Positions 13,625-47,200 of a DNA stretch of 64,000 nt are shown one piece after another. The number at the start of each line of letters is the position of its first letter. The first letter of the stretch is position 1. The notes under the pieces are model-generated. The model was not told the DNA's origin and made no database searches. It saw nothing but the letters and a program-made list of their open reading frames with translations. Both the position numbers and the translations under genes were made by a program. The stretch comes from an uncultured Desulfomonile sp. (lineage in GTDB: Bacteria; Desulfobacterota; Desulfomonilia; Desulfomonilales; Desulfomonilaceae): the NCBI GenBank assembly GCA_903952205.1, contig CAJBEZ010000071.1, positions 1-64,000 on the forward strand, in the 5' to 3' direction.

Positions 13625-14374
13625 ATGACCAGGGACGGGCAGAAGTTTGACCTGGATGAAGAGCTACTGGAAAAACTGTACGCAAAGTACGCCAAAGGAG
13701 GGCTTCGCGTCTCCGGGTGGAGGCAGTGGGCATATTTCTTCGCCAAGAAAAGCCTGTGGATCTTCGTTGTGGAAAGCGCCAGGGCTCTTAAACGCGTTAT
13801 GGACATTGTTGGATCCGCCGCTGGACTGTTGCTTCTCTCACCAGTATTTCTCGTAACCGCATTACTCATAAAGATAGAAGACCGTGGATCCATTTTTTAC
13901 GGTCAGGACCGAGTTGGAAAGTGGGGCAAAATCTTTCGAATGTACAAGTTCCGTTCAATGATAGTCAACGCCGACAAGATGAAGGATACACTTCTGGATC
14001 AGAACGAGTCAGGTGGCGTGATATTCAAAATGAAGAGGGACCCCAGAATTACTCGAGTAGGTAGGGTAATAAGAAAGCTGAGTATAGACGAACTGCCTCA
14101 ACTCCTGAATGTTCTCAAGGGCGACATGTCGCTGGTAGGCCCCAGGCCGCCGGTGCCGCGCGAAGTCGCGGAATATGAACTGTCGGATCGTCGTAGGCTA
14201 GACATGGTGCCTGGGCTTACCTGCCTGTGGCAGGTTGCCGGGCGCAGCGACATTGACTTCGAAGGTCAGGTGCGCCTGGACGTTCAATACCTTGAAAGCC
14301 AATCATTAAAAGGGGATATCATCTTGCTCCTCAAGACCATCCCTGCAGTGCTTTCCGGTAGAGGAGCATACTGA
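13625..14374 (+). CDS. Polyprenyl-phosphate sugar-1-phosphate transferase (PGT initiator)
   Basis: This 249-residue bacterial sugar transferase starts the repeat unit by moving a sugar-1-phosphate from its nucleotide to undecaprenyl phosphate at the inner membrane. It has one hydrophobic re-entrant segment (about 58-82), the YKFRSM block, the catalytic Asp-Glu pair in SIDELPQL (Asp155, Glu156), SLVGPRPP, and the C-terminal W-x-V-x-GRS region. It lacks the N-terminal membrane module of WcaJ/WbaP, so it is the short PglC-like form. AGGAAACC precedes the ATG. The next gene begins 17 bases later. Confidence 0.93.
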   Translation: MTRDGQKFDLDEELLEKLYAKYAKGGLRVSGWRQWAYFFAKKSLWIFVVESARALKRVMDIVGSAAGLLLLSPVFLVTALLIKIEDRGSIFYGQDRVGKWGKIFRMYKFRSMIVNADKMKDTLLDQNESGGVIFKMKRDPRITRVGRVIRKLSIDELPQLLNVLKGDMSLVGPRPPVPREVAEYELSDRRRLDMVPGLTCLWQVAGRSDIDFEGQVRLDVQYLESQSLKGDIILLLKTIPAVLSGRGAY

Positions 14375-14391: not shown

Positions 14392-15864
14392 ATGAAAGTC
14401 ATTCTCACCTGCTTTGAATCCGGGACACCGTTCGGTCCGTTGACTCAGTTTCAACCTGTCGCGCTGCTGCCGGTACTAAATATTCCGTTACTTCAACGCC
14501 AAATTGAAATGTGCGTCTCCGCCGGTTTCAAAGATATCGACATAGCTGTTGTCGATCACCCCTTGGCCATAAAGGGCTTTGTCGGTGATGGCAAGCGTTG
14601 GGGCGCGTCAATCAGGGTTTGGACGTTTAAGGACGCATGCTCGAGCCTGGAAACCGTTTCCCGGCTGTCAGACAAGCTTGAAGGCCGGATTATGGTTCTG
14701 CCGGTAGAGCATTGTATCGATTTCAATATCGCTGATTTGCTGAGTTTTCATCAATCTCATGAAATGAAGATCACCCGGCTGTTCTGCGCCAGCCGATTGA
14801 GAGCTGTGTTACAGTTGGAGCAAGGAGCGGCTCCGGTTGCATCTCACACTCTTCAGGAGCCTATAGATTCAGGCATTGTCATAATTGACTCGCCCTCTGA
14901 TACCGACGCCACGGATAATCGGATGATATTCTCGGGTTCGTGGATACCCATCAATTCCGCCCGTCGTCTTTGGTCTGCCAACATGGCCTGTTTGGATGGG
15001 CTGTTCCCACTCCTCATGAACGGAATTAATGTCCAGGGCAACAAAGATGTCTTGGTCGGTCATCATTCTGTGGTGGACGCAACTACCCTGACCGTTGGTC
15101 CCGTGCTTCTCGGTGATTTTGTTTCCGTCAGATCCAAAGCCCGGGTCGGTCCCTATGCAGTTATTGGGAAAGGCTCAATTATAGACAAGGAAGCTCATGT
15201 TAGCCACTCCCTAATTCTGAATCATGTCTACGTGGGAACGCAGACGACCATGAATTTTGTCATCGTAGCGGATAACAATGTAATGAACATGAGGCTGGGG
15301 ACTTGGGTGGCGGTCACCGATCCATTCCTTGTTTCAAGCGTAAGAGAAAAGATCCTGGCGCCTTGGACTGTTCAACTTTTCAACAAGGGCATCGCAATCT
15401 TTTTGCTTCTGCTAACTTGCCCAATCTGGTTGATCAAGGGCATTTTTCGCATGATTTCCGGTAAGCCCTTCTTCGACCGGAGTAGTTTTTTTCAATGGGA
15501 TTCTTCGTCTGGAGCGGCGGGCCTAGCCAGGGGCAGGAACGTGGAACATCTCACATTCAATGATTCAAATGGCCTCGTTTCAAGATTACCGGGACTAATA
15601 GACGTGGCTAGAGGAAGGCTTGCGTTGGTGGGAGTGCGTCCACTAGAGGAAAGTATCGTATTGACGTACACTGACGATTGGACTATACCTAGGTTTAGCT
15701 CACCCGCGGGTCTCTTTACCCCGGTAGACGCCGAGCTAATTAACGACGGTCTGGATGAGGAAAAGATTGTAGCCGAAACTTTTTTTGCCACCCAACAGTC
15801 CTTCAGACAAGATTTGCAAGTGTTGTTGAAATCGCTGAGAAATCTTGTTTTTCACAGAGGGTAG
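14392..15864 (+). CDS. Tri-domain protein: nucleotidyltransferase-like, beta-helix, inactive PGT-like
   Basis: The 490-residue protein begins like an NDP-sugar pyrophosphorylase (ALLPVLNIPLL), but the GxGTRL loop is replaced by SGTPFGP and the lysine of the usual PKALLP is Val. Residues about 220-310 are left-handed beta-helix hexapeptides (VGPVLLGDFVSV, VGPYAVIGKGSI). After a membrane segment (about 330-352) comes a PGT-like domain with SRLPGLIDVARGRLALVGVRP, where the catalytic Asp-Glu is Ser397-Arg398. Both enzyme sites therefore look dead. It follows the active PGT by 17 bases and has a paralogue at 45662. A scaffold or regulator of the initiating complex is my inference. Confidence 0.8.
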   Translation: MKVILTCFESGTPFGPLTQFQPVALLPVLNIPLLQRQIEMCVSAGFKDIDIAVVDHPLAIKGFVGDGKRWGASIRVWTFKDACSSLETVSRLSDKLEGRIMVLPVEHCIDFNIADLLSFHQSHEMKITRLFCASRLRAVLQLEQGAAPVASHTLQEPIDSGIVIIDSPSDTDATDNRMIFSGSWIPINSARRLWSANMACLDGLFPLLMNGINVQGNKDVLVGHHSVVDATTLTVGPVLLGDFVSVRSKARVGPYAVIGKGSIIDKEAHVSHSLILNHVYVGTQTTMNFVIVADNNVMNMRLGTWVAVTDPFLVSSVREKILAPWTVQLFNKGIAIFLLLLTCPIWLIKGIFRMISGKPFFDRSSFFQWDSSSGAAGLARGRNVEHLTFNDSNGLVSRLPGLIDVARGRLALVGVRPLEESIVLTYTDDWTIPRFSSPAGLFTPVDAELINDGLDEEKIVAETFFATQQSFRQDLQVLLKSLRNLVFHRG

Positions 15865-15991
15865 CCGGTAGGCTGTATTGTTCCTTTTCGACCAGTCTTG
15901 ACTAAAGAAAAATATTCCCTAGAGTTAACTCATAAATATCGTAACTTGCTTGTAGATTCTAATCCTTTTTTTGCAATTGGGAGCGGTTGTC

Positions 15992-16321
15992 ATGACCATT
16001 GAAGAAAAAGACGGAATATGGGTTGTTGTGACGGAGGAAAGACTTGACGCATTGGAAGCGCCCAAGGTTAAGGATGCAGTCAAGAAACTTGCCGAAGAAG
16101 GCAAACTTAAGATTCTCATCGATATGGGTAAGACCCGATTCATAGATAGCGCTGGGTGTGGCTCTCTTGTGGCCTCACTTAGGACTATCGCCAAAAACAA
16201 AGGCGACATGAAAATCTCTCGTCCCTCGGCTCAGGTCCAGACTCTATTCGAACTCACTAGGCTCCATCGAATTTTTGAGATATTTGACGATGTTGAAGGG
16301 GCAGTGAACTCTTTCTCTTAG
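15992..16321 (+). CDS. STAS-domain anti-sigma-factor antagonist 1
   Basis: This 109-residue single STAS domain is of the SpoIIAA/RsbV type. ATG 15992 follows GGGAGCGG; a TTG upstream is unlikely. The phosphorylatable serine lies in the conserved strand-helix turn FIDSAGCGSL. Such proteins bind an HATPase anti-sigma kinase when unphosphorylated. The matching HATPase gene follows 220 bases later, and a second STAS paralogue lies at 30964 in the same locus. No sigma factor or PP2C phosphatase is encoded nearby. Confidence 0.9.
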   Translation: MTIEEKDGIWVVVTEERLDALEAPKVKDAVKKLAEEGKLKILIDMGKTRFIDSAGCGSLVASLRTIAKNKGDMKISRPSAQVQTLFELTRLHRIFEIFDDVEGAVNSFS

Positions 16322-16541
16322 GAAAGCGTTTTCAGGGACTGTTTCGTTTTATATCTTCGCAACCCACTAGAGGGATGTCTGCGATTTTTACAGACGAAGG
16401 CACGTTTCCAGGCGCAAAGGGAGGGAACTTACATGCTGTTGACATATTCGTTTTGGGGAAATGATCTGGGTTCGTTTATAATTGTTGGTTTATGTGTGGG
16501 GGGTTTTCGTCTATCGTGGGTCGAATGTGGAGTCACATAAA

Positions 16542-16982
16542 ATGGAAACACTATACATCGCCATCCAAACAGAAGCAAATGAACTCATAATACGGCCATC
16601 TGTGCAGTTTGTTCGTACACTGCTCGGGCAGTTGTGGCCTTTCGCTGAGAATGAGCGCCTGCTTTACTCCGCCGAATTAATTTTTAATGAAGCTCTTGTC
16701 AATATTGTAGAACATACCTACCAGTCTACAAACACAGGAAGTTTGCGCATAATCGTCGAGATTGCCGAGGAGACGTTAAAGTTTCGTTTCGAAGATTGGG
16801 GACAGAGTTTCGATCCAGACTCAGTTCCCCCTCCCGACCTCGAAACCCCGCCGGAAGGGGGCATGGGATTGTGGTTCATCCGGCAGTTTGTGGATGAACT
16901 TCACTATCGAACTGAACCGGATGGAAAAAACGTGCTTGAACTTACAAAAAAGATCCCTGGGCTTAGTGTTAAACTGGATTAA
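16542..16982 (+). CDS. RsbW-type HATPase anti-sigma / serine kinase
   Basis: The protein is 146 residues from ATG 16542 (GGAG nine bases before); the frame is open back to 16482. It is a single GHKL ATPase domain with N-box NEALVNIVEH, G1-like EDWGQSFDP and G2 GGMGLWFIRQ. Members phosphorylate the STAS serine and sequester a sigma factor or another partner. With the two STAS proteins it makes a partner-switching module inside a polysaccharide locus, comparable in concept to SypA/SypE of Vibrio fischeri. Its output partner is not identifiable here. Confidence 0.88.
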   Translation: METLYIAIQTEANELIIRPSVQFVRTLLGQLWPFAENERLLYSAELIFNEALVNIVEHTYQSTNTGSLRIIVEIAEETLKFRFEDWGQSFDPDSVPPPDLETPPEGGMGLWFIRQFVDELHYRTEPDGKNVLELTKKIPGLSVKLD

Positions 16983-21210: not shown

Positions 21211-21274
21211 TTGATGATCATCCTTACATGCTGGATCGCATTGTGGGAAGAAAGAACTGGACGTGGAGAGGCTG

Positions 21275-27178: not shown

Positions 27179-27279
27179 AAGTATTTTTAGCGGAGTGTAG
27201 TTTTTTTCCAATCGCAACGGTGTTTTCTCCCTTTTACATAAGGGCACGTAACAGCTCAGGATTGATAGGATTGATTTGC

Positions 27280-30200: not shown

Positions 30201-30810
30201 TTTGAGGGCGCCATGGCCCAGCGCCAACACTGAAATAAAAAGGAAAATCCGTGAGGGCCTCATAGCTAAAGCCGACAGCACACTAAAATTAACTTACTCT
30301 AATCCTTACAGGAATGGAGCTAGACTCGATGTGCCGGAATGGATTGGTTGGGGGGAATTCACCCAGAGTTCGCAGTACGCTTTCCTTTCTCTCCAGGCAT
30401 GGACACTGGAAAAAGAGCCCAAATACTGGGTGGCCGCTCTGGCCAATCTGGACGCCCAACTGGGCGCCAATCCTCTCTCCATGTCCTTCATAACCGGACT
30501 CGGATACCGCTATCCGAGAGACCCTCTCCATCTTCCATCTTTGTATGACGGAGAAGAAGACCCCGTGCCCGGGTTGCCAATATTCGGAGCGTCGGCGCAC
30601 CTGCCAAATAATCAACCCTACTACATTGCGAGCCAGGAAGATAAAAACAGCCATCCTCCGTCGAAGGCGACAAAGGATCCCTATCCCATATTAAGACGCT
30701 ATATTGACGCTCATGAGCTAGTTCCCATGTCGGAGTTCACCATCGTTGATATGGCGGTAGCGGCCGCAGTATTCAATCTTGTCGCTCAGAGTCCGGTCAG
30801 AAAATGGTAG
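27280..30810 (+). CDS. Secreted GH9 glycoside hydrolase with inserted beta-propeller
   Basis: The protein is 1176 residues from ATG 27280; an earlier ATG at 27139 overlaps the NRPS. Order: signal peptide (1 to about 24), a beta-sandwich carbohydrate-binding-like domain (28-175), an Ig-like segment (to about 290), the first strand of a CelD_N Ig domain (KVNQEGYLP, about 300), about 280 residues of propeller blades with AVGD.G.IL.W repeats, the rest of CelD_N (TPGTYRAYIPG, about 660), then GH9. The catalytic base motif is HDAGDYGKY (about 757) and the acid is Glu in MSEFTIVD (about 1150). It likely cleaves beta-1,4-glucan-type chains outside the cell, perhaps trimming the locus product as BcsZ does for cellulose. 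Confidence 0.9.
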   Translation: MRALISALFIMTLCLGIPITDVAGASEKGEIVYSGKYPDKCLKNIVQENLQGVEKGYALKLTPDQWHAPILKLFCDAKNRKDFTPYSTIEFYFRSPSSNPGNPTFELRTWDKTSLKVPILKYISGGTIDNTFRQVTIPLAQLVSKEWDLGNVESLAWNPDSENRVYYVDKITLRQTQLPSLITEGQFRPFPESNTVFRLTFSKWCQEKTAKDLNNYSISSANDPLYSIPTHPVDAGVTHRVHSFTSSGVAQKRFFVYIRLPNPLRNNSTYSVSVKGLSDEFGNIMSPNEFVLDYSDRRIHNPNIKVNQEGYLPEGPKIGYVGGYLGDMGGGTWAVGDKGAALYWDGRTAPKKAVVPVESALRGVSGLRDDDIFAVGDLGVILHWNGSDWRRVDSPTRNDLMAVCFGPTGTGWAVGSGGTILRHKNGEWLEITSPTKDTLRSVWAGPQDVAWAVGDHGKILKWDGGQWTVEPSSTELNLRSINGSHKNMLWAVGDNGIALSRDSNQWKPCSSVPQTSVTLRSVVTDPSGGVWISGDSGLLWNKADAGECKFAALQSGTTLPLYGITRRHGRELWAVGGQGYIVSLSGENKPKKELFSSNDDLFAVFSMSHGAMRLPDPPPQATIEELPANKPTITVPLKLEAANWYLSGEDVYSFNFSEIETPGTYRAYIPGLGVSDSFRIGDDALNHAAYTTAHAFYYQRCGTALVEPYSEKRFTRPIDHEYDLNGRKIDAAFHPSLPGTPLYSGEGPGTTADAHGGWHDAGDYGKYLPTAAAALWYLFTGYDMEPAKFSDGTWNIPESGNGAPDLLDETRWEVDWMARMQGPDGGVYHKLTSQKWVKGMPQDEEVPRNFFEKTTHDTALAAAVFACASRLWKPYDREASDFYMERALKAWDFLKQHPEETPKGGFRNPPGNTTGEYRDTEDIDNRLWAAAELYRATGKDDYRDYFENWWKNTQEHSWGWNAWRHFYRSAYWAYLRAPWPSANTEIKRKIREGLIAKADSTLKLTYSNPYRNGARLDVPEWIGWGEFTQSSQYAFLSLQAWTLEKEPKYWVAALANLDAQLGANPLSMSFITGLGYRYPRDPLHLPSLYDGEEDPVPGLPIFGASAHLPNNQPYYIASQEDKNSHPPSKATKDPYPILRRYIDAHELVPMSEFTIVDMAVAAAVFNLVAQSPVRKW

Positions 30811-30963
30811 ACAGAAAACTTTCATAACTTCTTGCCAACAATAAGAATTTGATTTCCGCTCCACTCGTGATAAGATGGAAAATTGAAACAGCTTTTGAAA
30901 CCAACCGCTTGCACTGATTGTTGAGTAAGGCGCATCGTTGGAAGGCAGCGTTCAGAGCATGAA

Positions 30964-31296
30964 ATGGAACTTAAATTAGAGCAAGTCGGAGACGTTACAG
31001 TCGCTCAGGTCTGCGAGGAGACGCTGAGCGCCAACAACGTTCAGGATTTTAAATCTGAAATGGCAAAGATCTTAAAACCTGGCTCAAAAGTTGTTCTTGA
31101 CATGGGTAAAATCAAATTTGTCGACAGTTCTGGAATCGGAGGTCTCCTTTCTTGCGTGAACAATCTCAGTTCTTCTGATAGTCAGTTGAAGCTTTCCAAC
31201 GTCACGATTCAGGTTAGAAACCTGTTTGAACTGGTCAGGGTCCATCGGTTCCTCAACGTTTTCAACACATCCGAGGAGGCTGTGCGTTCTTTCTGA
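30964..31296 (+). CDS. STAS-domain anti-sigma-factor antagonist 2
   Basis: The 110-residue single STAS domain is paralogous to the one at 15992 (shared LDMGK..F.DS.G.G.L and QV..LFEL.R.HR pattern). The serine pair in FVDSSGIGG includes the expected phosphorylation site. It could compete with STAS 1 for the single HATPase at 16542. It opens the block of transferase, polymerase and flippase genes; the next gene follows within 115 bases. The ribosome site is weak. Confidence 0.9.
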   Translation: MELKLEQVGDVTVAQVCEETLSANNVQDFKSEMAKILKPGSKVVLDMGKIKFVDSSGIGGLLSCVNNLSSSDSQLKLSNVTIQVRNLFELVRVHRFLNVFNTSEEAVRSF

Positions 31297-33337: not shown

Positions 33338-34264
33338 ATGAACGATAACGATCGTCATCAGTATTCAATTGATCTGGACATTGACCTGAAGTCTCTGGAT
33401 CTCATAAAAGAAAACAAGTACTGCATTATCTATGTGGCAGATACTCCCCACGGACGTCGTATAGTTAAGAAGTACAAAGGTGAGGACTCCAGTCTTGTAA
33501 AGATTGAGGCTGACGCCCTGACTTTTTATCACGAACTGGCTCAAAATGATTCTGATCTCATGGATTCCGGTGAACCTCTTTTGAGAGAGGACAGAAACCT
33601 TCTTTGCATAGGCTTCATAGAAGGGGACGCATTCAGTGATGTTTTGTATAAGGCGAGAAAAGATAATGTTATCCGAGACAGGTCTGTCCGGTTGATGCGG
33701 ATACTGGGCAGAGTAATAAGCGCCATATATGACAAAACACGAAAACCTTCTGAAAAGACTTCGCCGTTCATTTTCGAATATTTTGACTATTGTTCGAACC
33801 GACTCCACGAGATGCCAATTTTGGGGGCCACGTTTTTCAAACGGATGTCAGAAGATGCCATTGAAATTGCTAAAGAATTTGAGAAAAGCAATGTTGAGCC
33901 CTCGTTCATCCACGGAGATCTGGTTTTCAAAAACATTCATGTCAAGGACGAACGTTTGGGTCTGATCGATTTTGCAAACGCCAATTCACTGAGTCATCCA
34001 CTGAATGACATTTATAACTTACGTTTTGCTCTGGCGAACATGATACTGCCTAAAAGCTTCAAGACCGAGCTTTTTGAAGGCTTCAATCTGGGCATGGGTA
34101 AATTGGATTTTTCACCGCCAGTCAAAAGCTTTTACTACGAATATCACCGTCGACGCTGGCTCATGCTCAAACTCACGTCGAGGAACCCGGTTGATTTTAT
34201 GCAGGGTGTTCGAGGGCTTTTGACCTTTGCAAGGCATTCTGCGCCAGAGACCATGATGCCATGA
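33338..34264 (+). CDS. APH/LPS-kinase-like small-molecule kinase
   Basis: This 308-residue protein-kinase-like fold protein has an N-lobe Lys in RRIVKKYKG, a Glu in KIEADAL, the catalytic loop FIHGDLVFKN (about 189-198) and the metal-binding Asp in LIDFAN. The loop is of the aminoglycoside-phosphotransferase/WaaP style rather than eukaryotic Ser/Thr kinases. ATG 33338 abuts the stop of the nucleotidyltransferase and its own end overlaps the next gene by ATGA, so coupling is tight. It may phosphorylate a sugar or aglycone before transfer. Confidence 0.75.
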   Translation: MNDNDRHQYSIDLDIDLKSLDLIKENKYCIIYVADTPHGRRIVKKYKGEDSSLVKIEADALTFYHELAQNDSDLMDSGEPLLREDRNLLCIGFIEGDAFSDVLYKARKDNVIRDRSVRLMRILGRVISAIYDKTRKPSEKTSPFIFEYFDYCSNRLHEMPILGATFFKRMSEDAIEIAKEFEKSNVEPSFIHGDLVFKNIHVKDERLGLIDFANANSLSHPLNDIYNLRFALANMILPKSFKTELFEGFNLGMGKLDFSPPVKSFYYEYHRRRWLMLKLTSRNPVDFMQGVRGLLTFARHSAPETMMP

Positions 34265-35628
34265 CCGTAGCGTCCCTATTGGGCATTCTAACATTCCTGA
34301 TAGGGGTCCCCTCTGTCCTCGCATTGCTCTATTCCAAACCCAACCTTCGCAGGCCCCTACTCTCTATCATGGCTTTCGCCACCTGTTACGTCAAGAAACC
34401 CCTGTATATGGAGATCTTCTTTGTGCCGTACCGGGGAGTTGATCGCGGATTCGGCGTCACCATTACGGACCTACTGCTTTTCGGCTTTTTTCTGTGGATT
34501 GTTTTTGGAGGTTCGAAAGATAAAATCATCTGGTGGCCGTATAACACCACTCTCTGGCTACTCCTTATATTGGTCTCACTCGTTTCCTTGATGGGTTCCC
34601 CTGTTGCCTACTATGGTTTGTTCACGATACACAAACTTATTCGAGGTTACCTACTGTTCTGGGTTGTTGTAAACCTCGTGCGCGACAGAAAGGATGTTGA
34701 GGCCGTTGTTTACGGTGTAATGGCCGCAGTGATTCTTCAGACATGGATTGTCCTGTTCGACAAATACGTTACCAAGAAAGTGGTCAACAGATCATTGGGA
34801 GCGTTTCCTCATCCTAATAGTCTTGCAATGTATATCGATTTAATAACTCCCATGACTTTGGCCATTCTGCTTGCCGGTGAATTCCCAAAAAGCAAAACCA
34901 AATGGGCGGCGATTGCAATACTGGGGGGCCTGTTATGTATAGTTTTTACAAAATCAAGGGCGGCCCTTATAATAGCCGGCGCCGCTCTAGGCGGGGTGAC
35001 TTTCTTTTCCATCATCCTTAAACCTACCGGTAAAAAAATTGGCATAGCTCTCGTCGGATTGATGATGGTGGCCATAATGGGTGTTTTTGCCGCGCCCAAA
35101 ATCATAGAAAGATTCCAGAAGGCCCCTGAGGCCTCAGAGATGACTCGGGTATATTTCAACAATGCGGCGCGCGCCATGGCTGCCGACAAATTGTTCGGAA
35201 TGGGTTTGAACTCCTATTCATGGACTTTGGCCAACACGGATTACTATTGGTATGTCTACGCAGAAGAACGGGATGAGGTAAAAGACGAAGACGAGTTCAG
35301 GGAAAGCAAGAAGGGAGAGAGTCGCCTGGGGACAGCTCATCATATCTACTACCTTTTCGCTGCTGAAACAGGCTGGCCTGGAATGATAATCTTCATTATG
35401 TTTCTGGCCAGATACTATCTTCATAATCTGGTTCTCCTCCTTCGAACTCGGGATGATTATTATCAGGCTGTTTTACTTGGCCTGTTCGTTGGTTTTTCGA
35501 CATTGCACCTTCAGGGTTTGCTGGAATGGATTTTCCGTCAGACGCAGGTTTTTTTCCTTTTTTGCGTTTTGACGGGCCTCATGGTCGGCGCCGGGAATGT
35601 CGCGAAACAGGCCCCAAAAGTCAAATAA
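34261..35628 (+). CDS. O-antigen ligase / Wzy-type polymerase
   Basis: The 455-residue integral membrane protein has about 11-12 hydrophobic segments and a large periplasmic loop in the second half (about 295-370) with the family-typical AHHIYYLFAAETGWPG. It resembles Wzy_C/WaaL proteins that join lipid-linked repeats in the periplasm. Position between a kinase-like gene and the flippase fits a Wzx/Wzy pathway. The start overlaps the preceding stop (ATGA). Confidence 0.9.
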   Translation: MTVASLLGILTFLIGVPSVLALLYSKPNLRRPLLSIMAFATCYVKKPLYMEIFFVPYRGVDRGFGVTITDLLLFGFFLWIVFGGSKDKIIWWPYNTTLWLLLILVSLVSLMGSPVAYYGLFTIHKLIRGYLLFWVVVNLVRDRKDVEAVVYGVMAAVILQTWIVLFDKYVTKKVVNRSLGAFPHPNSLAMYIDLITPMTLAILLAGEFPKSKTKWAAIAILGGLLCIVFTKSRAALIIAGAALGGVTFFSIILKPTGKKIGIALVGLMMVAIMGVFAAPKIIERFQKAPEASEMTRVYFNNAARAMAADKLFGMGLNSYSWTLANTDYYWYVYAEERDEVKDEDEFRESKKGESRLGTAHHIYYLFAAETGWPGMIIFIMFLARYYLHNLVLLLRTRDDYYQAVLLGLFVGFSTLHLQGLLEWIFRQTQVFFLFCVLTGLMVGAGNVAKQAPKVK

Positions 35629-35638
35629 GGAGCCGACA

Positions 35639-37240
35639 TTGGCAAAACAAAACCCGACGGAGCGTCAAAACTCGGGCGGCGCCGACCCAGCGAAGAAGAA
35701 CAGATCCCGCTATATCCTTATGAATACAGTTTCCAGTTATGGCAGGGATATTGTCGACACTGTGGCTTTTCTTGTTCTCATCCCCTTCATCATTCACGTA
35801 TTGGGGAAAGAGAGTTTCGGGTTGTGGTCACTGATCTGGGCGTTTCTGGCCATATTTGAACTTGCTGATCTCGGTTTTGCGGCTTCGGTTATAAAATATG
35901 TCGCTGACGCTAGAGGCAAGGATGACTACAAGAGTCTGAAGAATATAGTCTGCACTCTTTTCTGGATCTATGCGTTCCTGGGGGGAGTGGTCGGCACAGG
36001 AGTTTTGGTAAGCCTTCTGTTCTTTAACAAGCTTTTTCAAATCCCGGCCGATCAACTCGAAATGGCCAATGCTGTTCTGGTAATTTTGGGCATACGGTCG
36101 GCATTCTATCTTCCTCTCGGTATGTTCAGGGGGGTTCTTGTCGGTTTTCAGAAATTGAACGTGGCCAACGGATACAAGGTTTTTTCAAGCTTGCTTTATC
36201 TGGTTTCCGTCCTGATCTTTCTCCCTTTGATCCCAGACATTCGCGTCCTGGCTCTGCTGAACGCAATCACCGGACTCGCCCCAATGTTTGCGATGATGAT
36301 TCACGTGAGAAAGGTCATGCCCGAGTTCACTCTCAACCCCAAACATTTTCAGCAATCATTAATGAGAAAACTATCCTCGTTTTCAATATATTTTTCTCTG
36401 ACCCAAATAGCCGGGATGATAGCAACCCGATCCGACACCATGGTAATTAAGCTTTTTCTTCCACTGGAAATGGTTGCAATCTATTCCATCGGGATGAGAC
36501 TATCAGAAAAAGCATCCATGTTTTGTTCACATTTGACTAGGGCATTATCTCCTGTATTTGCCGAACTTCACGGAGCCAATGACCAGTCAAATGTAAAAGC
36601 GGCTCTCTACAGGGGTAGTAAGCTTACAATCGCATTCGCCACACCCCTGCTCCTTGGGTTGGCCATTCTTGCCGAACCTTTAATCGTTGCATGGACAGGA
36701 CCGAGTTTCAATTTGGCGGTCCCTGTTTGCCGATGGCTGGTGGCGGCAGCGATGGTCGCAATAATCCATGGCAATACCGTAAACCTTCTCGCCATGGGCG
36801 GGCATCAGAAGTATACGGCAATTTGCATTGTGGCCGGTCAGATCGTCAACCTTGTTCTTTCTGTTATCCTGATTGGCCCTTTAGGAATCGCGGGCGTTTC
36901 CATGGCCACTTTCATCGCGTCAGTACCGATCTACATCGGTTTTATTCAGGTATACGCATCCAGAATGCATGGCAAGTCCCTTTGGGATTTTTACAGGGCT
37001 ACGTTGTTCCCGAGTGTAATACCGGCTTTGGCCATGACAGGACTGTTTGTTGGAGTGCTGAATTTCGTTAACTTGACCAACCTCGTGGAGGTGGCTATTC
37101 TCCAAACCATTGGGATGGTCTTTTTCGGCTCTATTTACTGGTTGATAGGCTTTGATGGGGAAGAACGGGCCTACTTCATGGACAAGATACGACGTGCAGT
37201 GACACGCCGTAAACCAAAGGGCCGGACAACAAAGCCCTAA
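35639..37240 (+). CDS. Wzx-type oligosaccharide flippase
   Basis: The 533-residue MOP-superfamily membrane protein has about 14 hydrophobic segments beginning after a basic N-terminus. It should move the lipid-linked repeat across the inner membrane. I choose TTG 35639 because AAGGAG (35627-35632) precedes it at six bases; the ATG at 35597 would overlap the polymerase gene by 32 bases without a site. It ends with a basic tail. Neighbours are the polymerase and the Wzc-like co-polymerase. Confidence 0.9.
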   Translation: MAKQNPTERQNSGGADPAKKNRSRYILMNTVSSYGRDIVDTVAFLVLIPFIIHVLGKESFGLWSLIWAFLAIFELADLGFAASVIKYVADARGKDDYKSLKNIVCTLFWIYAFLGGVVGTGVLVSLLFFNKLFQIPADQLEMANAVLVILGIRSAFYLPLGMFRGVLVGFQKLNVANGYKVFSSLLYLVSVLIFLPLIPDIRVLALLNAITGLAPMFAMMIHVRKVMPEFTLNPKHFQQSLMRKLSSFSIYFSLTQIAGMIATRSDTMVIKLFLPLEMVAIYSIGMRLSEKASMFCSHLTRALSPVFAELHGANDQSNVKAALYRGSKLTIAFATPLLLGLAILAEPLIVAWTGPSFNLAVPVCRWLVAAAMVAIIHGNTVNLLAMGGHQKYTAICIVAGQIVNLVLSVILIGPLGIAGVSMATFIASVPIYIGFIQVYASRMHGKSLWDFYRATLFPSVIPALAMTGLFVGVLNFVNLTNLVEVAILQTIGMVFFGSIYWLIGFDGEERAYFMDKIRRAVTRRKPKGRTTKP

Positions 37241-37265
37241 CCTTGATCACAACATCGGGATTGCA

Positions 37266-39431
37266 GTGACAACTCCAACTGAACAAACACCTTCATCTTC
37301 CGGGCTTCCGTTTGATCCTCTGACTTTACTCGTTGGACTCATCCTGAGATGGAAGATTGTTGTCATCGCCCTGGTGTTTTCTTTGATTCTCGGCGCAGTA
37401 GCGGCCAAGCTATTGGGCAAAGAGACTTTTGAGACGGAAACAATAATTTTCTACAAGGAACCTGATAAAAAAGATGACGCTGGAGGCCGAAATCCATCGG
37501 TAAGCAACAGGGCGACAATGCTCAAGATTCCATCCAACCTCAGAGCAGTCAGCGAAAAACTCAAACTTGGCCTTGCTCCTCAGAAACTGGCCGGGCTCAT
37601 CCAGGTAAAAGTCGAAAAGAGGACCTCTCTCATAATCATTACGGCCCAGTGGTCAACGGCAAAAGAGGTCGCGAAAATTGCCAACACCATGCGTGAAGTA
37701 TTCATCGCCAACCAGGTCGCGATGATGAGAGCAGACGTAAAAAATGAAATTGACGGTATTGAAACTAAGCTTGAAGTGGTAAACCGCCATCTCAAGGATG
37801 CTGATCAAAAACTTCAGACGTTTATATTGGATAACAAAATAGTGGATTTGAACAAGGAGATTCAATGGAACGTGGACCAGATAGCCTCGATGGAGTCGCT
37901 GCTTTCCAATTCCAAAAACGAGGAGGACACGATTGAAACCCAGAAGCTCAATATACAGGAAAGGATCACAAATTTAAAGGCCAAAGTCGTCGAAGAGCAG
38001 TCAGTCTCAAAAGCGGGAAAGAGTCTGGCGGATCTCAATATTCGAATAGAGAGGCTTCGCAGGGCAATACACGATGATAAAGTGAAGCGTAAGAACACGG
38101 TCGAGATGAGCAAAGATGAACTTGCCTATTTGAGAGCTAAAGAACTTCTGGACAAGGGATTGATAGCCAAGCAGGACTTCGAAAAAGCCAAGGCTGAGTT
38201 TGAGGCCAAGGAAGTTGACGCTGTCGACACCGAAGAAATTGAGGAATGGAGAAGACAGTTGAAGGTCCTGGAGGGAGAGGTAATTCCGGAGAAGGAGAAT
38301 TTCAAAAGCCCTACTCAGGAAATGTTGAGCAGTCTTCAAGTCAAACTCCTGGATATGGAACTTCAACAGGTTTCTCTATCGAAGAAAGTGGACTTTGTGA
38401 ACAACCAGATCATACGGGTCAAGGCCAGGTTGGAGGTCCTATCAGGACTTCAGCGACAACACACAGCCCTTTCCAAGGAAGTGTCGACATGGGATGCGCA
38501 AAAGTCAGAGCTTGAATCAGCTCTGGGAAAATTACGCAAGGATTATGAGTCCAATGATTCGGGTTTTGTATTGGTATCCGAGGCGCCGGTTCCTTTGCAG
38601 AGCATTAAGTCCAACAAAAAGATTTTCTTTGGGGCTATAGCTTTTCTCGGTACCGTAATTGGTTTTGTTGTTATAGTGATTTCAGAACTCAACGATAAAA
38701 CTATCAAATCGGGAAGTGAAGTCCAAAGCAAATTTTCGAGACCGGTTTTGGGAACTATACCGGACATGAAAGATCAGGCAGGGGTTTTCCCAGATATGGA
38801 CGACTTCCCTTTAATAGAAACTTTCCGATTGATATCACTAAATGTTCGTCGACATTATCCCAAGCGCGGGGTCCGCATAATGATTACAAGCGCCGAAAGA
38901 TGGGAAGGCAAAACAATGGTTGCCGCCAACCTGGCCGCCTGCATGGGACGTCAGGACGAACGTGTTCTGGTAATGGACGCTCAGATCCGCTCCATGGAAA
39001 GCGAAGTGGATCTCAGATACATGATCGCCGAGCATGACAAGCCTCTCAAAGGATTGGGAGAATGGTTGTCTTATGACGTCCTAAGTCCTGAGGAAATGAT
39101 ATGGCCTACCGTCCTTGCGGGGGTTGAATGTATTCCAAGGCTGGAGGCCGCAGTGTCTCCTGATCTCCTGAGTTCCATGCGAATGAAAGAGCTTATGGAG
39201 ACCCTTTCGGAAAATTTCAGCTTTATAATCGTAGATGGGCCTCCAGTTGGAACCTTAGTAGACGCCGAACTGATAGCTCAGTGTTGCGACGCAATGATCT
39301 TTGTCGTAAGAAGTCGATCATGCGTTTCTTCAGTTTTGAAGAAGTCTGTGGAACGTATGCGGGGTACTGGGACGCCTGTGGCGGGTTTTGTCGTCAATTA
39401 TATCGATCCACTTTACTTGAAGTGGACATGA
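37266..39431 (+). CDS. Wzc-like polysaccharide co-polymerase with BY-kinase-type domain
   Basis: This 721-residue protein has a Wzz chain-length domain with a membrane segment near 27-45, long periplasmic coiled coil (about 150-440), a second membrane segment (about 455-475) and a cytoplasmic P-loop domain. Walker A is AERWEGKTM, A' is VLVMDAQIR and B is FIIVDGPP, each somewhat off consensus. The C-terminus (IDPLYLKWT) lacks the usual Tyr cluster, so autophosphorylation may be lost or differ. It sets chain length and couples to export. The start is GTG 37266. Confidence 0.88.
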   Translation: MTTPTEQTPSSSGLPFDPLTLLVGLILRWKIVVIALVFSLILGAVAAKLLGKETFETETIIFYKEPDKKDDAGGRNPSVSNRATMLKIPSNLRAVSEKLKLGLAPQKLAGLIQVKVEKRTSLIIITAQWSTAKEVAKIANTMREVFIANQVAMMRADVKNEIDGIETKLEVVNRHLKDADQKLQTFILDNKIVDLNKEIQWNVDQIASMESLLSNSKNEEDTIETQKLNIQERITNLKAKVVEEQSVSKAGKSLADLNIRIERLRRAIHDDKVKRKNTVEMSKDELAYLRAKELLDKGLIAKQDFEKAKAEFEAKEVDAVDTEEIEEWRRQLKVLEGEVIPEKENFKSPTQEMLSSLQVKLLDMELQQVSLSKKVDFVNNQIIRVKARLEVLSGLQRQHTALSKEVSTWDAQKSELESALGKLRKDYESNDSGFVLVSEAPVPLQSIKSNKKIFFGAIAFLGTVIGFVVIVISELNDKTIKSGSEVQSKFSRPVLGTIPDMKDQAGVFPDMDDFPLIETFRLISLNVRRHYPKRGVRIMITSAERWEGKTMVAANLAACMGRQDERVLVMDAQIRSMESEVDLRYMIAEHDKPLKGLGEWLSYDVLSPEEMIWPTVLAGVECIPRLEAAVSPDLLSSMRMKELMETLSENFSFIIVDGPPVGTLVDAELIAQCCDAMIFVVRSRSCVSSVLKKSVERMRGTGTPVAGFVVNYIDPLYLKWT

Positions 39432-42352: not shown

Positions 42353-43501
42353 ATGCGGGTAGGGATAGACACATTCGGCGCAGACGGTGGAAAGTCCGGG
42401 TTAAGCCAGTATATCATCAAGCTTCTTCAGCAGTTGGCCTTGATTCCAAATGGGCCGGAATTCGAAGTCATAGTGTACGATGATGAGAAATCGTTATTTA
42501 TTCCGCCCGGCGATAAAATGGCGCCTATCTGTTTCAGTAAAAGATTACATAATCCACTAATCAATCTCGCATGGCATCTGGTTGGCCTACCCCGTCTTTG
42601 CCAAAAGCGGGGCTACGATGTGTTGTTTCTACCGGCGGCGAACAGAAGGGCCCCATTCTGGCTTCCATGTCCATCAGTCGGAACAGTGCACGACTTCTCG
42701 AGCACTCATGTTGAAGACAAATACGACAAAGCGAGAATGTTTTTTATAAAGCGATATACCCCGGTTTTGATTCGTAGGCTCAACATGGTGCTTACCGTCA
42801 GCGAGAACAGCAAGAGAGATATTGTGAGCTTTTGCGGCATCCCTGAGGAAAAAGTCGTGGTGACTCCTAATGGAGTGGACCTGGAAGTTTATTTCCCGCA
42901 ACCGGGGAATTCGGCTCTTGAGAGACTTCAGGCCAAGTACGCCATTCGGTCCCCATATATTCTTTATGTGTCGAGAATAGAACATCCGGGCAAGAATCAT
43001 GTTCGCCTAATCAACGCATTCAGTCAGTTGAAGGCCAAAACCAAGATTCCTCATCAACTAGTTATTGCCGGCACTCCGTGGGGACGAGCGGAAGAAGTTT
43101 ATGACACGGCGGCCCGATCCCAATACACTGAAGACATTTCATTTATTGGATTTGTGGATGGATCAGACCTTCCTTCACTTTACGGCGCTGCGGATCTTTT
43201 TGTCTTCCCATCTCTATATGAGGGTTTCGGAATGCCGATTCTCGAAGCGATGGCGTGCGGGACACCGGTGGTTTGTTCCAATGTGTCTTCTATGCCGGAA
43301 GTGGCTGGAGACGCGGCGCTCCTATTTGATCCTTACGATGAGGATGATATTTGTAGAGTTATGGAAGAAACACTTGAGAATGATGAACTTCGTGGGAAAT
43401 TAGTTCAGAAAGGTATTGAAAGAAGCGGTCTATTCAGTTGGGCCAATGCAGCCCACAAGACCCTCGAAGTCATATACCAGGTTCACAAGGATAACACTTG
43501 A
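42353..43501 (+). CDS. Family 4 glycosyltransferase C
   Basis: The protein is 382 residues from ATG 42353 (AAGGAACATCTC site); the frame is open back to 42266 inside the previous gene. It is a mannosyltransferase-like GT4 with GKSGLSQY at the N-terminus, YILYVSRIEHPGKNH, and YEGFGMPILEAMACG at the donor site. It overlaps the uridine kinase gene by four bases (TTGA). Confidence 0.9.
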   Translation: MRVGIDTFGADGGKSGLSQYIIKLLQQLALIPNGPEFEVIVYDDEKSLFIPPGDKMAPICFSKRLHNPLINLAWHLVGLPRLCQKRGYDVLFLPAANRRAPFWLPCPSVGTVHDFSSTHVEDKYDKARMFFIKRYTPVLIRRLNMVLTVSENSKRDIVSFCGIPEEKVVVTPNGVDLEVYFPQPGNSALERLQAKYAIRSPYILYVSRIEHPGKNHVRLINAFSQLKAKTKIPHQLVIAGTPWGRAEEVYDTAARSQYTEDISFIGFVDGSDLPSLYGAADLFVFPSLYEGFGMPILEAMACGTPVVCSNVSSMPEVAGDAALLFDPYDEDDICRVMEETLENDELRGKLVQKGIERSGLFSWANAAHKTLEVIYQVHKDNT

Positions 43502-44130
43502 ACAGTAAGAGCCCGCACATCATCGGCATATCAGGCGCCACTTGCTCTGGAAAATCCAGCCTGGCAAAGAGGATTAGGGACAGGCTAACGGGCAAAAGCA
43601 TTTCTATAATATCTTGTGATTGGTACTACCGCGACCTCTCAGCATTAACGCCTTCCGAAAGAGAGAACTGTAATTTCGATGTGCCGGAAGCATTGGAAAT
43701 GGACTTGCTCCGCCGTGACCTCGAATCACTTGCTGTGGGAAACGACATTTTTAGACCGGTATACGATTATTCCACGCACACCAGAGCCTCTCATTCAATC
43801 CAGGTCACTCCAGGCCACATCATCATAGTCGAAGGGCTTTTCGTATTATATTGGGAGGAAATTCGTCAATTATTAAATACCAAGGTGTTTGTCTTCCTTA
43901 CAGACGATGAATCACTGGCCAGAAGACTTGACAGAGATGTAAGGGAAAGAGGACGGACGCGGCAATCGGTTATAGATCAATATCAAACAACGGTCGAACC
44001 CATGACCCGTAAATTTGTGCTTCCCACAAGGCGCTTTGCCGACATCCTGGTTCGTGGAACAGACCCTATTGAAGATTCAGCGGAATCCGTAATAAGCCGC
44101 CTCCCTTGTGTCCGGAAGAATTCGACTTGA
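43498..44130 (+). CDS. udk: Uridine kinase
   Basis: This 210-residue P-loop kinase of the uridine/phosphoribulokinase family phosphorylates uridine or cytidine. It has Walker A GATCSGKSS, the substrate-site DWYYRDLS, the FDVPEAL block, a DYSTHTR loop and RRLDRDVRERGR lid. It starts at TTG 43498, overlapping the stop of the upstream GT4. Its place inside the transferase operon suggests a role in supplying UTP for UDP-sugars or a relaxed specificity for another nucleoside-like substrate. Confidence 0.88.
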   Translation: MNSKSPHIIGISGATCSGKSSLAKRIRDRLTGKSISIISCDWYYRDLSALTPSERENCNFDVPEALEMDLLRRDLESLAVGNDIFRPVYDYSTHTRASHSIQVTPGHIIIVEGLFVLYWEEIRQLLNTKVFVFLTDDESLARRLDRDVRERGRTRQSVIDQYQTTVEPMTRKFVLPTRRFADILVRGTDPIEDSAESVISRLPCVRKNST

Positions 44131-44265: not shown

Positions 44266-45657
44266 ATGACAGATGATAGCCGACAAAACCGAGTCAGAGA
44301 AAAAGAAATAGAGACATTTAACAGTCACTATTCTCGTCTTGGAGCCGCTCGAAGAAAACTGAGAAGATATTTTCGCTCAATATCATGGTTCATTAAAATG
44401 AAACTTAAACCCCTTCCAAAACGATGCTTTGACTTACTATTATCATTATCCGCCGTTGTGATTCTCTCCCCTATCCTGATGCTGGGGTTCATATTTTCGC
44501 GGTTTTCATTTTATCGTATCCCGAGATATGGAAAAGGGCTCTTAATTTATGACGAACTCTCCTTCAGAATCGAAAATGGACGGGGGGGGGATCTTGTCAA
44601 GAAACTTCATTTGACCAACCTGCCCATTTTAATTAACGTCATCAGTGGAGACATGTCCTTCGTGGGGCCTCGCCCGATGTCCCCCGAAGATGTGAATCTT
44701 CTCGATAGGGGGATGCGCAGGCGTCATGACGTCAGGCCTGGACTCGTTTCTCTCTGGTGGATACGCCGGCGGGCTAACATCAATTATGGGACAGAGATCG
44801 CTGTTGATCTGGAGTACATCGATAATCAGGGATTATTCAGCGACATTGGAATTCTCCTAAGAGCCATCCCAGCGATATTACTTGGCGACGCAGTCGGTTC
44901 CTCTGATAAAGAGTTAAGAATCCTGGGCATCCCAATAGATAACCTTACTATGGAACAGGCCGTAGACACCATCCTGAAATGGCTCAGCGAGCCAGGGGCT
45001 AAACAGGTCTGCTTCGTCAACGCTGATTGCGCAAACATTGCGTATAAAGATAACGACTACCTTAAAGTCCTTACCGGCGCCGATCTTTGCCTGGCGGATG
45101 GAGTCGGTCTTAAACTGGCGGGCAAAATCCTGTCTCAGGATATAGCTCAAAATGTCAATGGCACTGATATGTTCCCCATCCTCTGTGAGCGTCTTTCCGG
45201 CACTCACGTAAAATTATTCTTGTTGGGGGCGAGGGCTGAGGTAGTTCAAGGACTAGTGGACTGGATTAGCAGGCATCACCCGGGAGTTCAGTTAGCGGGA
45301 TATCACCACGGATATTTCGATCCGAATGACGAAAATAAAGTTATTGAAAGCATAAGAGACTCCGGGGCTCATTTGCTTCTGGTAGCCTTCGGAGCGCCCA
45401 GGCAGGACGTTTGGATCAACCGGCGTCTTGGAGAAACAGGAACCAGGGTCGCCATAGGTGTTGGTGGACTTTTTGATTTCTATTCCGGCCGACTTCCCCG
45501 CGCTCCATTGTGGATGAGAGAAATTGGTATTGAATGGCTTTACAGGATGCTTCAGGAACCAGGTCGTCTATGGAAGCGTTATCTGATAGGAAATTGCGTT
45601 TTCCTTTTTAGGGTCTTGAAGGAAAAACTTTTTCCGGGAAGGCGAAGAAACGCTTAA
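44266..45657 (+). CDS. Fusion of inactive PGT-like domain and WecG/TagA/CpsF glycosyltransferase
   Basis: Residues about 50-212 are a shortened PGT domain with a membrane segment (about 58-80) and SGDMSFVGPRP, but the Asp-Glu of the active motif is Thr117-Asn118 in LHLTNLPILI and the KFRSM loop is missing. Residues about 225-463 are a GT26 WecG/TagA/CpsF domain with VNADCANI, LADGVG, VNGTDMF and VAFGAPRQDVWI, all intact. GT26 enzymes add the second sugar to an undecaprenyl-PP-sugar. A G9 tract (44582-44590) lies in the coding sequence. The tri-domain paralogue follows after four bases. Confidence 0.88.
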   Translation: MTDDSRQNRVREKEIETFNSHYSRLGAARRKLRRYFRSISWFIKMKLKPLPKRCFDLLLSLSAVVILSPILMLGFIFSRFSFYRIPRYGKGLLIYDELSFRIENGRGGDLVKKLHLTNLPILINVISGDMSFVGPRPMSPEDVNLLDRGMRRRHDVRPGLVSLWWIRRRANINYGTEIAVDLEYIDNQGLFSDIGILLRAIPAILLGDAVGSSDKELRILGIPIDNLTMEQAVDTILKWLSEPGAKQVCFVNADCANIAYKDNDYLKVLTGADLCLADGVGLKLAGKILSQDIAQNVNGTDMFPILCERLSGTHVKLFLLGARAEVVQGLVDWISRHHPGVQLAGYHHGYFDPNDENKVIESIRDSGAHLLLVAFGAPRQDVWINRRLGETGTRVAIGVGGLFDFYSGRLPRAPLWMREIGIEWLYRMLQEPGRLWKRYLIGNCVFLFRVLKEKLFPGRRRNA

Positions 45658-45661
45658 TAAA

Positions 45662-47200
45662 ATGCTCTCAGTAATTATTTCACACGGGATCTCCGTCGCC
45701 AAGAGGGGTATCAACGAAAGATGGCCCACCCCAATGCTGCCTCTGGTAGACAAACCATTCATACAGCACGTGATGGAGTTCATACTCGATCAGGGCGGAG
45801 ACGAATCAGAAATAGTCCTCAGCCATCTTCCTGAAGAAATAGAAAGACTTCTTGGAGACGGTTCGAAATTTGGTAGTCGCTTTACGTTTCATCTTGCCAA
45901 AGATCCATCCCAACCCTATGACACTCTCAAGTCTGTTTCTTTTGAACATAAATCAAGTCCAATTCTACTGGCCCACGCTGACCGCCTACCAGATGTTGAT
46001 CTAAAGGCTTTTGTCTCAGAATTTAGGGAAAGTGACGCGGTTATGTTTCGCCTCGCAGAAACAAACGTCATTACAGAAAAATCCTTGCATTCGTCCAAGT
46101 GGTCAGGTTGGGCTTTGGTCTCCCCGACGTTTCTTGCGCAACTGCCACTGGGGATAAATGAACAGGACCTGGAGTCGCTCCTTTTTTCCTCTACCCATCA
46201 CCGTATTCGTATAGTTGAAATTGACAAATTACTTGATATTAGAACATATCAGGGTCTCCTTGATTCTAATCGGACTTTTCTCTCAGGACAATTCAGGGAC
46301 TTTGCTCCGGAAACGAGAGAGAGAAGCCATGGAGTATGGATTTCCCGTAACGCAACAGCGCACCTGTCAGCTAAGCTGTCGGCGCCGGTTTTTGTTGGAG
46401 AAAACAGTCACTTGGGAGCTGGCGCAAGGGTCGGTCCATTTGCGGTAATAAGCGAAAATTGCATCGTGGATGAGGACTCCACAGTAAGTGACGCCGTAAT
46501 CTGTCCCAACACGTACGTAGGGGTGAAAATAGATCTGAAAAATGTAGTAGTAGAGAAAAACTGGATGTTCAATGTTCGCATTGGAACCGAAGTTACAGTA
46601 ACTGATTCATTCATCCTCGGAGGCCTCACAGGAAGGTACGAAAAACGCCGGATCGAGGGTCTTGCTTCAAGGACTGTCGGCATCGCTCTGCTCTTGTTTC
46701 TTTCTCCGTTCTTGCTGGTAATTGTCCTCTTTCTCAAATTATTTAGAAACGGACCGGTTTTTTTCACAAAAGAAGTGGTAAGACTGCCCGCTCCTTCAGA
46801 TGAGTTTCTTTGGAAGACGTTTCAACTCATAAGTTTTAGACCATTTCCCGACACGTCTCGGCAAAACTCTGCAGAGAGGCATTGTGTTGAGCTTTTCTAT
46901 CGATTCCTGCCAGCCCTGATAAATGTTGCCAGAGGAGAAATGCGATTTGTTGGAATATCTCCTAGAAGTAGTCAAGATATCATGAACCTGGAAGAAGACT
47001 GGAAAACTCTCTACCTGAGATCAAAGGCGGGGATCATCACAGAAGCCTTTGTCCGTTACGGTCCGCAGCCAGCCAAAGAAGAACTCTACTCCGCTGAAGC
47101 GGTTTATTCGATAATGGGTTGCCCGAGCTACGACATGAGACTCGTCGGCAATTACATCAAGAGGGTTATCTTCGGAAAGCTTCGACGAAGAAGCGAATAA
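45662..47200 (+). CDS. Tri-domain protein 2: nucleotidyltransferase-like, beta-helix, inactive PGT-like
   Basis: The 512-residue paralogue of the protein at 14392 has the same order. The N-terminal pyrophosphorylase-like domain has PTPMLPLVDKPF but neither the GxGTRL loop nor the lysine. Hexapeptide repeats (APVFVGENSHLG, VGPFAVISEN) span about 235-310. A membrane segment (about 340-362) leads to a PGT-like domain with FLPALINVARGEMRFVGISP, where the Asp-Glu pair is Arg414-Phe415. It sits four bases behind the PGT-WecG fusion, as the first paralogue sits behind the active PGT. Likely a pseudoenzyme partner of the initiating transferases. Confidence 0.8.
   Translation: MLSVIISHGISVAKRGINERWPTPMLPLVDKPFIQHVMEFILDQGGDESEIVLSHLPEEIERLLGDGSKFGSRFTFHLAKDPSQPYDTLKSVSFEHKSSPILLAHADRLPDVDLKAFVSEFRESDAVMFRLAETNVITEKSLHSSKWSGWALVSPTFLAQLPLGINEQDLESLLFSSTHHRIRIVEIDKLLDIRTYQGLLDSNRTFLSGQFRDFAPETRERSHGVWISRNATAHLSAKLSAPVFVGENSHLGAGARVGPFAVISENCIVDEDSTVSDAVICPNTYVGVKIDLKNVVVEKNWMFNVRIGTEVTVTDSFILGGLTGRYEKRRIEGLASRTVGIALLLFLSPFLLVIVLFLKLFRNGPVFFTKEVVRLPAPSDEFLWKTFQLISFRPFPDTSRQNSAERHCVELFYRFLPALINVARGEMRFVGISPRSSQDIMNLEEDWKTLYLRSKAGIITEAFVRYGPQPAKEELYSAEAVYSIMGCPSYDMRLVGNYIKRVIFGKLRRRSE

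Follow-up and report, generated by a model that had tools for sequence, protein, structure and literature searches.

A conserved pseudo-PGT domain fused to a GT26 transferase, and its linkage to intact PGTs in exopolysaccharide loci

It is an open question how polysaccharide assembly couples step one with step two on undecaprenyl phosphate, a scarce carrier, and one gene of an uncultured Desulfomonile sp. bears on it: what is a PGT-like domain without its catalytic dyad doing at the N-terminus of a WecG-type transferase? The gene lies at 44266..45657 (+ strand) of the 64,000-nucleotide stretch of contig CAJBEZ010000071.1 (assembly GCA_903952205.1) that was analysed here and is called the window below. 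It starts with ATG and encodes 463 aa, as delimited by the ORF call, Pfam matches and an AlphaFold2 model. An earlier note on this DNA had proposed that the dead domain docks the second-sugar transferase at the membrane site of the first-sugar enzyme, and we compared the fusion, its neighbours and its homologues in other genomes with that proposal in mind.

The N-terminal domain, residues about 1-212 (44266..44901, + strand), matches Bac_transf PF02397 over residues 52-205 (E 3.5e-27) and matches PglC both structurally and by sequence. The hallmarks of monotopic PGTs are an Asp-Glu dyad and a PRP motif (PMC10653937). When the domain is aligned with the 249-aa small PGT encoded at 13625..14374 (+ strand), Thr117-Asn118 (44614..44619, + strand) falls on Asp155-Glu156 of that enzyme, and the dyad is therefore absent. 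The stretch SGDMSFVGPRP is present, and the spacing from KFRSM to the SIDELP equivalent is 16 residues in the fusion versus 45 in the PGT at 13625. Also kept, as Asp56 and Pro69 (44431..44472, + strand), is D-x12-P, the re-entrant membrane helix motif (PMC12802240). The alignment thus agrees with the earlier note, which had read Thr-Asn in place of Asp-Glu, a preserved SGDMSFVGPRP and a shortened substrate loop. The enzyme at 13625, which it had named as adding the first sugar, is catalytically intact as judged by SIDELPQL and its PF02397 match (E 6.2e-66).

The remainder of the fusion, residues about 216-455 (44911..45630, + strand), is a GT26 (WecG/TagA/CpsF) domain with a C-terminal appendage; Glyco_tran_WecG PF03808 covers residues 272-439 (E 1.5e-58), and the sequence match to TagA (PDB 7mpk) reaches E 1.3e-51 with 38% identity. 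Using the residue roles described for TagA (PMC6493773), Asp65 corresponds to Asp278 of the fusion and Arg214/221/224 to Arg427/434/438; all are kept in the fusion, and the catalytic Asp and the three Arg are kept in 41/41 aligned homologues. To this extent the domain is intact, as had been claimed from the sequence, but the claim does not extend to Thr37, a residue that orients the donor in TagA and is not required across the GT26 family: its equivalent is Phe250, and the aligned homologues have Phe in 40/41 and Tyr in 1/41. The donor sugar may therefore differ from that of TagA. Judged by its residues, the GT26 half appears to be a transferase of the kind that extends an Und-PP-sugar.

An AlphaFold2 model of the fusion built from 12 alignment rows had a mean pLDDT of 80.8, and a model built from four rows gave a poor N-terminal domain (pLDDT about 30-40). 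In the former, residues 44-208 matched PglC 8e37 with Z 19.3 at 2.5 Å over 164 residues and WbaP 8t53 with Z 19.3 at 3.0 Å, a fold match that leans on active PGTs because 8 of the 12 rows were active PGTs. The sequence-only match to PglC (E 7e-18) is independent of those rows. The C-terminal half of the model matched TagA 7mpk with Z 28.3 at 1.2 Å.

Homologous fusions were searched for among the window's relatives and across its phylum. The search also took in the order and the phylum to which Methylovulum psychrotolerans (L010) belongs, and the phylum that includes the Chlorobiaceae locus L011. Including the window's own, the set comprises 43 fusions, with 4 from the window's family, 1 from another family of its phylum, 24 from Methylococcales, 12 from Chlorobiota and 2 from other Pseudomonadota. 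None of the 43 retains Asp-Glu; about 25 different residue pairs occupy the dyad position, including TN, AR, KN, RN, AN, KQ, RD, AT and SG. The loss first seen in one gene is thus conserved in other genomes, and the outcome named in the earlier note as its refutation, a dyad retained by most homologues, does not occur. This rules out a local mutation or sequencing error and marks the domain as a conserved pseudo-PGT. Viral contigs were also searched, and the pseudo-PGT-GT26 fusion was not found in them.

Residue conservation was scored after aligning 40 pseudo-PGT domains with 32 active PGTs. Lost from the pseudo-PGTs are Asp155 (0/40) and Glu156 (kept in 4/40), Lys108 of the KFRSM active-site Lys/Arg motif (0/40), Arg110 and Ser111 (1/40 each), and Thr199 and Gly206 (0/40 each), and the substrate loop, at about 112-150, is missing from nearly all 40. 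Retained are Arg57 (39/40), Gly98 (38/40), Asp60 as Asp or Glu (40/40), and, without exception, Phe109, Gly166, Gly172, Pro196 and Gly197; within D-x12-P, the first position is Asp or Glu in 40/40 and the last is Pro in 28/40. For pairs with unsaturated dS, pairwise dN/dS was 0.05-0.32 in the pseudo-PGT part, slightly higher than the 0.04-0.20 of the GT26 part. The pseudo-PGT is under purifying selection, and we read it as dead as a PGT and retained for another purpose. A relic of a once bifunctional PGT-GT26 enzyme, with no present role, would also show the loss of loop and dyad, and an apparently decaying stand-alone pseudo-PGT without GT26 does occur at one Chlorobiota locus (L219 11537-12091, G835), just upstream of a PGT, a STAS gene and the gene for the third component described below. 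Such a relic is disfavoured by the dN/dS values and by the persistence of the domain across phyla with invariant fold residues, single-chain fusions included, and we give it very little credence.

For what purpose, then, would a dead PGT be kept? The fusions are linked to live ones: in 30/43 cases the locus of roughly 4 kb also encodes, on the fusion's strand, an intact PGT with a SIDELPQL-type motif, either as a neighbour or on the same chain. Four of those 30 are single chains of the order pseudo-PGT-GT26-PGT, namely L044 (693 aa, from the window's own phylum), L095 (690 aa, Methylococcales), and L159 and L160 (670 and 681 aa, other Pseudomonadota). Three features, namely this linkage, the existence of single-chain versions and the attachment of the pseudo-PGT to the step-two enzyme, make it the best explanation that the pseudo-PGT places GT26 beside the active PGT in a priming complex, where sugar two would follow sugar one, and we consider this explanation somewhat better than an even bet. 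The active PGT (13625 in the window) would make the Und-PP-sugar, the pseudo-PGT would act as a pseudo-subunit, located next to that enzyme in the membrane and presenting GT26, and GT26 would add the second sugar before the lipid diffuses away. The pattern suggests that the dead copies help to keep step one and step two close to each other at the membrane.

The docking role put forward in the earlier note is therefore favoured by the fixed loss of the dyad, by the selection acting on the domain and by its linkage to intact PGTs, but not in its simplest form. That form is weakened by the presence of the pseudo-PGT in single chains, where the tether between GT26 and PGT would make docking redundant, and by six Methylococcus-like loci (L100, L102, L104, L106, L107 and L112) in which the fusion has no adjacent PGT. 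The genomes of these six encode full-length large PGTs elsewhere (two were checked for the dyad), and in the Methylococcus-like loci read, a GT87-type gene lies between the fusion and the third component. Also counting against docking are the window itself, where the module is split and the PGT lies 30 kb from the fusion in a separate gene run; L161-L165 (Alphaproteobacteria-like), where the PGT joined C-terminally to GT26 has an intact DELPQ and the chain does without a pseudo-PGT; and the description of small monotopic PGTs as monomeric (PMC12802240).

Some Methylococcales, with the fusion and only a distant large PGT, leave room for an anchor or lipid-binding role. The PglC fold, the parent fold of the pseudo-PGT, binds Und-P. 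As the main rival to docking, the domain could be a membrane anchor or a polyprenyl-pyrophosphate-sugar binder for GT26 that makes no contact with the PGT, the linkage then reflecting shared operon function. The kept fold and re-entrant helix motif would be expected of such a domain, as would its persistence both in loci without an adjacent PGT and in chains that already link GT26 to one. Nevertheless, the C-terminal appendage already confers membrane association in TagA (PMC6493773), and its Arg residues are kept in all aligned homologues; together with the many GT26 proteins that stand alone at about 250 aa and lack a pseudo-PGT, this argues that an anchor is not generally needed. This rival also leaves the second pseudo-PGT, on the third component, unexplained, and we regard it as rather unlikely.

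The third component is encoded twice in the window, by paralogous genes at 14392..15864 (+ strand, 490 aa) and at 45662..47200 (+ strand, 512 aa), the former following the PGT and the latter being the next gene after the fusion; a third copy is found at G000:C37:355250. Per Pfam and alignment, each window copy consists of a degenerate nucleotidyltransferase-like domain, a left-handed beta-helix and a PGT-like domain, in that order. The window thus pairs the PGT at 13625 with one copy and the fusion with the other, and an additional pair of PGT and third component is located at C37:353365-355519. Across the loci whose wide flanks were read, the third component follows in 20/24. The GxGxR signature and the PKP lysine are absent from 22 aligned third components (one partial), and in the same set the Asp-Glu dyad of the PGT-like domain is absent wherever that region is covered; the third protein is, as far as its residues indicate, wholly non-catalytic. 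Oligomers may form through its beta-helix, which would bring several copies together. In a PGT-domain tree built by a quick method and having some long branches, the third-component pseudo-PGTs, the cassette PGTs and the large PGTs each fall on one side of a branch, and the fusion pseudo-PGTs need two changes and stand apart from every active PGT.

After the window's pair of PGT and third component come a STAS protein of the anti-anti-sigma type (15971..16321, + strand; PF01740 E 5.4e-17) and an RsbW-like HATPase_c_2 protein (16482..16982, + strand; PF13581 E 1.3e-21), and the window thereby holds all five parts of the module: the pseudo-PGT-GT26 fusion, the intact PGT, the third component, STAS and the RsbW-like protein. 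A second STAS-like ORF, recognised by phmmer only, heads the exopolysaccharide gene run (30925..31293, + strand). STAS and RsbW-like genes recur by the cassettes in three phyla (in Chlorobiota, Methylococcales and at the C37 locus), and GT26-STAS fusions with one or two STAS domains occur in the window's phylum (L021, L028 and L047, the first two in the window's class) and tie GT26 to partner-switch proteins in a second way. Long GT26 proteins of that class, taken by their length as candidates for further pseudo-PGT fusions, proved to be GT26-STAS proteins instead. The recurring genes and the GT26-STAS fusions point to possible control of the priming module by partner switching, and STAS/RsbW-like proteins may regulate its assembly.

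The same genes could mean that the pseudo-PGT is a regulatory subunit that switches the catalytic PGT, with STAS/RsbW-like partners as signal input and without channelling. A precedent is available in Myxococcus xanthus, where the PGT EpsZ is activated through direct interaction with a response regulator (PMC12802240). No regulatory site was identified, however, and step coupling accounts better for the fusion of the pseudo-PGT with the enzyme of the second step; we find a purely regulatory role improbable. Returning to the placement of GT26 beside the active PGT, we infer the contact itself, the order of the sugars, channelling, the handover of the Und-PP-sugar, and the scaffold and regulatory roles. 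Taken at its fullest, this would be a widespread exopolysaccharide priming complex of one catalytic PGT and two kinds of pseudo-PGT, of which one bears GT26 and the other a dead nucleotidyltransferase and a beta-helix that acts as an oligomerising scaffold. A partner switch of the STAS/RsbW type would gate it, and the whole would form a membrane metabolon with substrate handover from step one to step two; we offer this full picture tentatively and hold it to be doubtful as a whole.

Known systems resemble the module in part. The pseudo-PGT shares the PF02397 fold and the D-x12-P helix with PglC of Campylobacter concisus (PDB 8e37, 8g1n), and the window copy also has the PRP uridine motif; unlike PglC, it lacks the Asp-Glu dyad, the active-site Lys/Arg and the substrate loop, and is fused to GT26. 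The catalytic-domain fold of large PGTs (WbaP, PDB 8t53; Myxococcus EpsZ) is likewise shared, whereas the pseudo-PGT has no four-helix bundle or DUF and is predicted to be non-catalytic. The WbaP dimer, with active sites 77 Å apart (PMC10942596), provides a precedent for dimeric PGT proteins. The fusion keeps the catalytic Asp and the appendage Arg residues of WecG and of TagA/TarA of wall teichoic acid (PDB 5wb4, 7mpk), and differs from TagA in the Phe for Thr37 and in its N-terminal pseudo-PGT. The bifunctional GT26-PGT proteins of some Pseudomonadota (L161-L165) also place steps one and two on a single chain, but their PGT half is catalytic (DELPQ) and they have no pseudo-PGT. In the exopolysaccharide synthesis of Myxococcus xanthus, the pseudokinase EcpK and the regulator EpsW (PMC12004946, PMC12802240) are likewise non-catalytic or signalling partners of an assembly enzyme, but the proteins of the present module come from unrelated families.

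In the literature searched, neither a pseudo-PGT nor the pseudo-PGT-GT26 fusion was described; the 2021 monoPGT network paper (10.1073/pnas.2018289118), which may mention them, lay outside that scope. The parts of the module belong to known families; that dead PGTs are conserved in a partner role is, as far as could be checked, new. With a conserved dead PGT joined to the enzyme of step two, and often encoded beside a live PGT or fused with it, these natural proteins lend themselves to a direct test of coupling, and the single-chain pseudo-PGT-GT26-PGT versions suit structure work. We would also like to note that the label of sugar transferase, when given to PF02397 matches, misdescribes two whole subfamilies.

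Several smaller observations concern the surroundings of these genes. Some Chlorobiota fusions carry an N-terminal extension (L011 5608-5997, L012) that looks receiver-like by eye and has no convincing Pfam or PDB match; at L220 3912-4601 (G674), the extension is a separate gene upstream of a PGT and third component, with no pseudo-PGT-GT26. A GT87-like gene takes the PGT's place between the fusion and the third component at L150, L151 and L156, and in G601 two frames share the coding sequence of the cassette PGT (L152 7343-7976), through a frameshift or an assembly error. In the window, a uridine kinase/PRK-like gene (43498-44130) immediately precedes the fusion, as it does in G012 (L140). 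The exopolysaccharide context is given by a Wzy_C protein, a Wzx-type flippase and a tyrosine-autokinase/chain-length protein (34261..39431, + strand; Pfam), and inside the exopolysaccharide region, at 21263-30810, are an NRPS-like protein of 1971 aa, with two A domains, a C domain and a thioesterase, and a 1223-aa GH9 protein.
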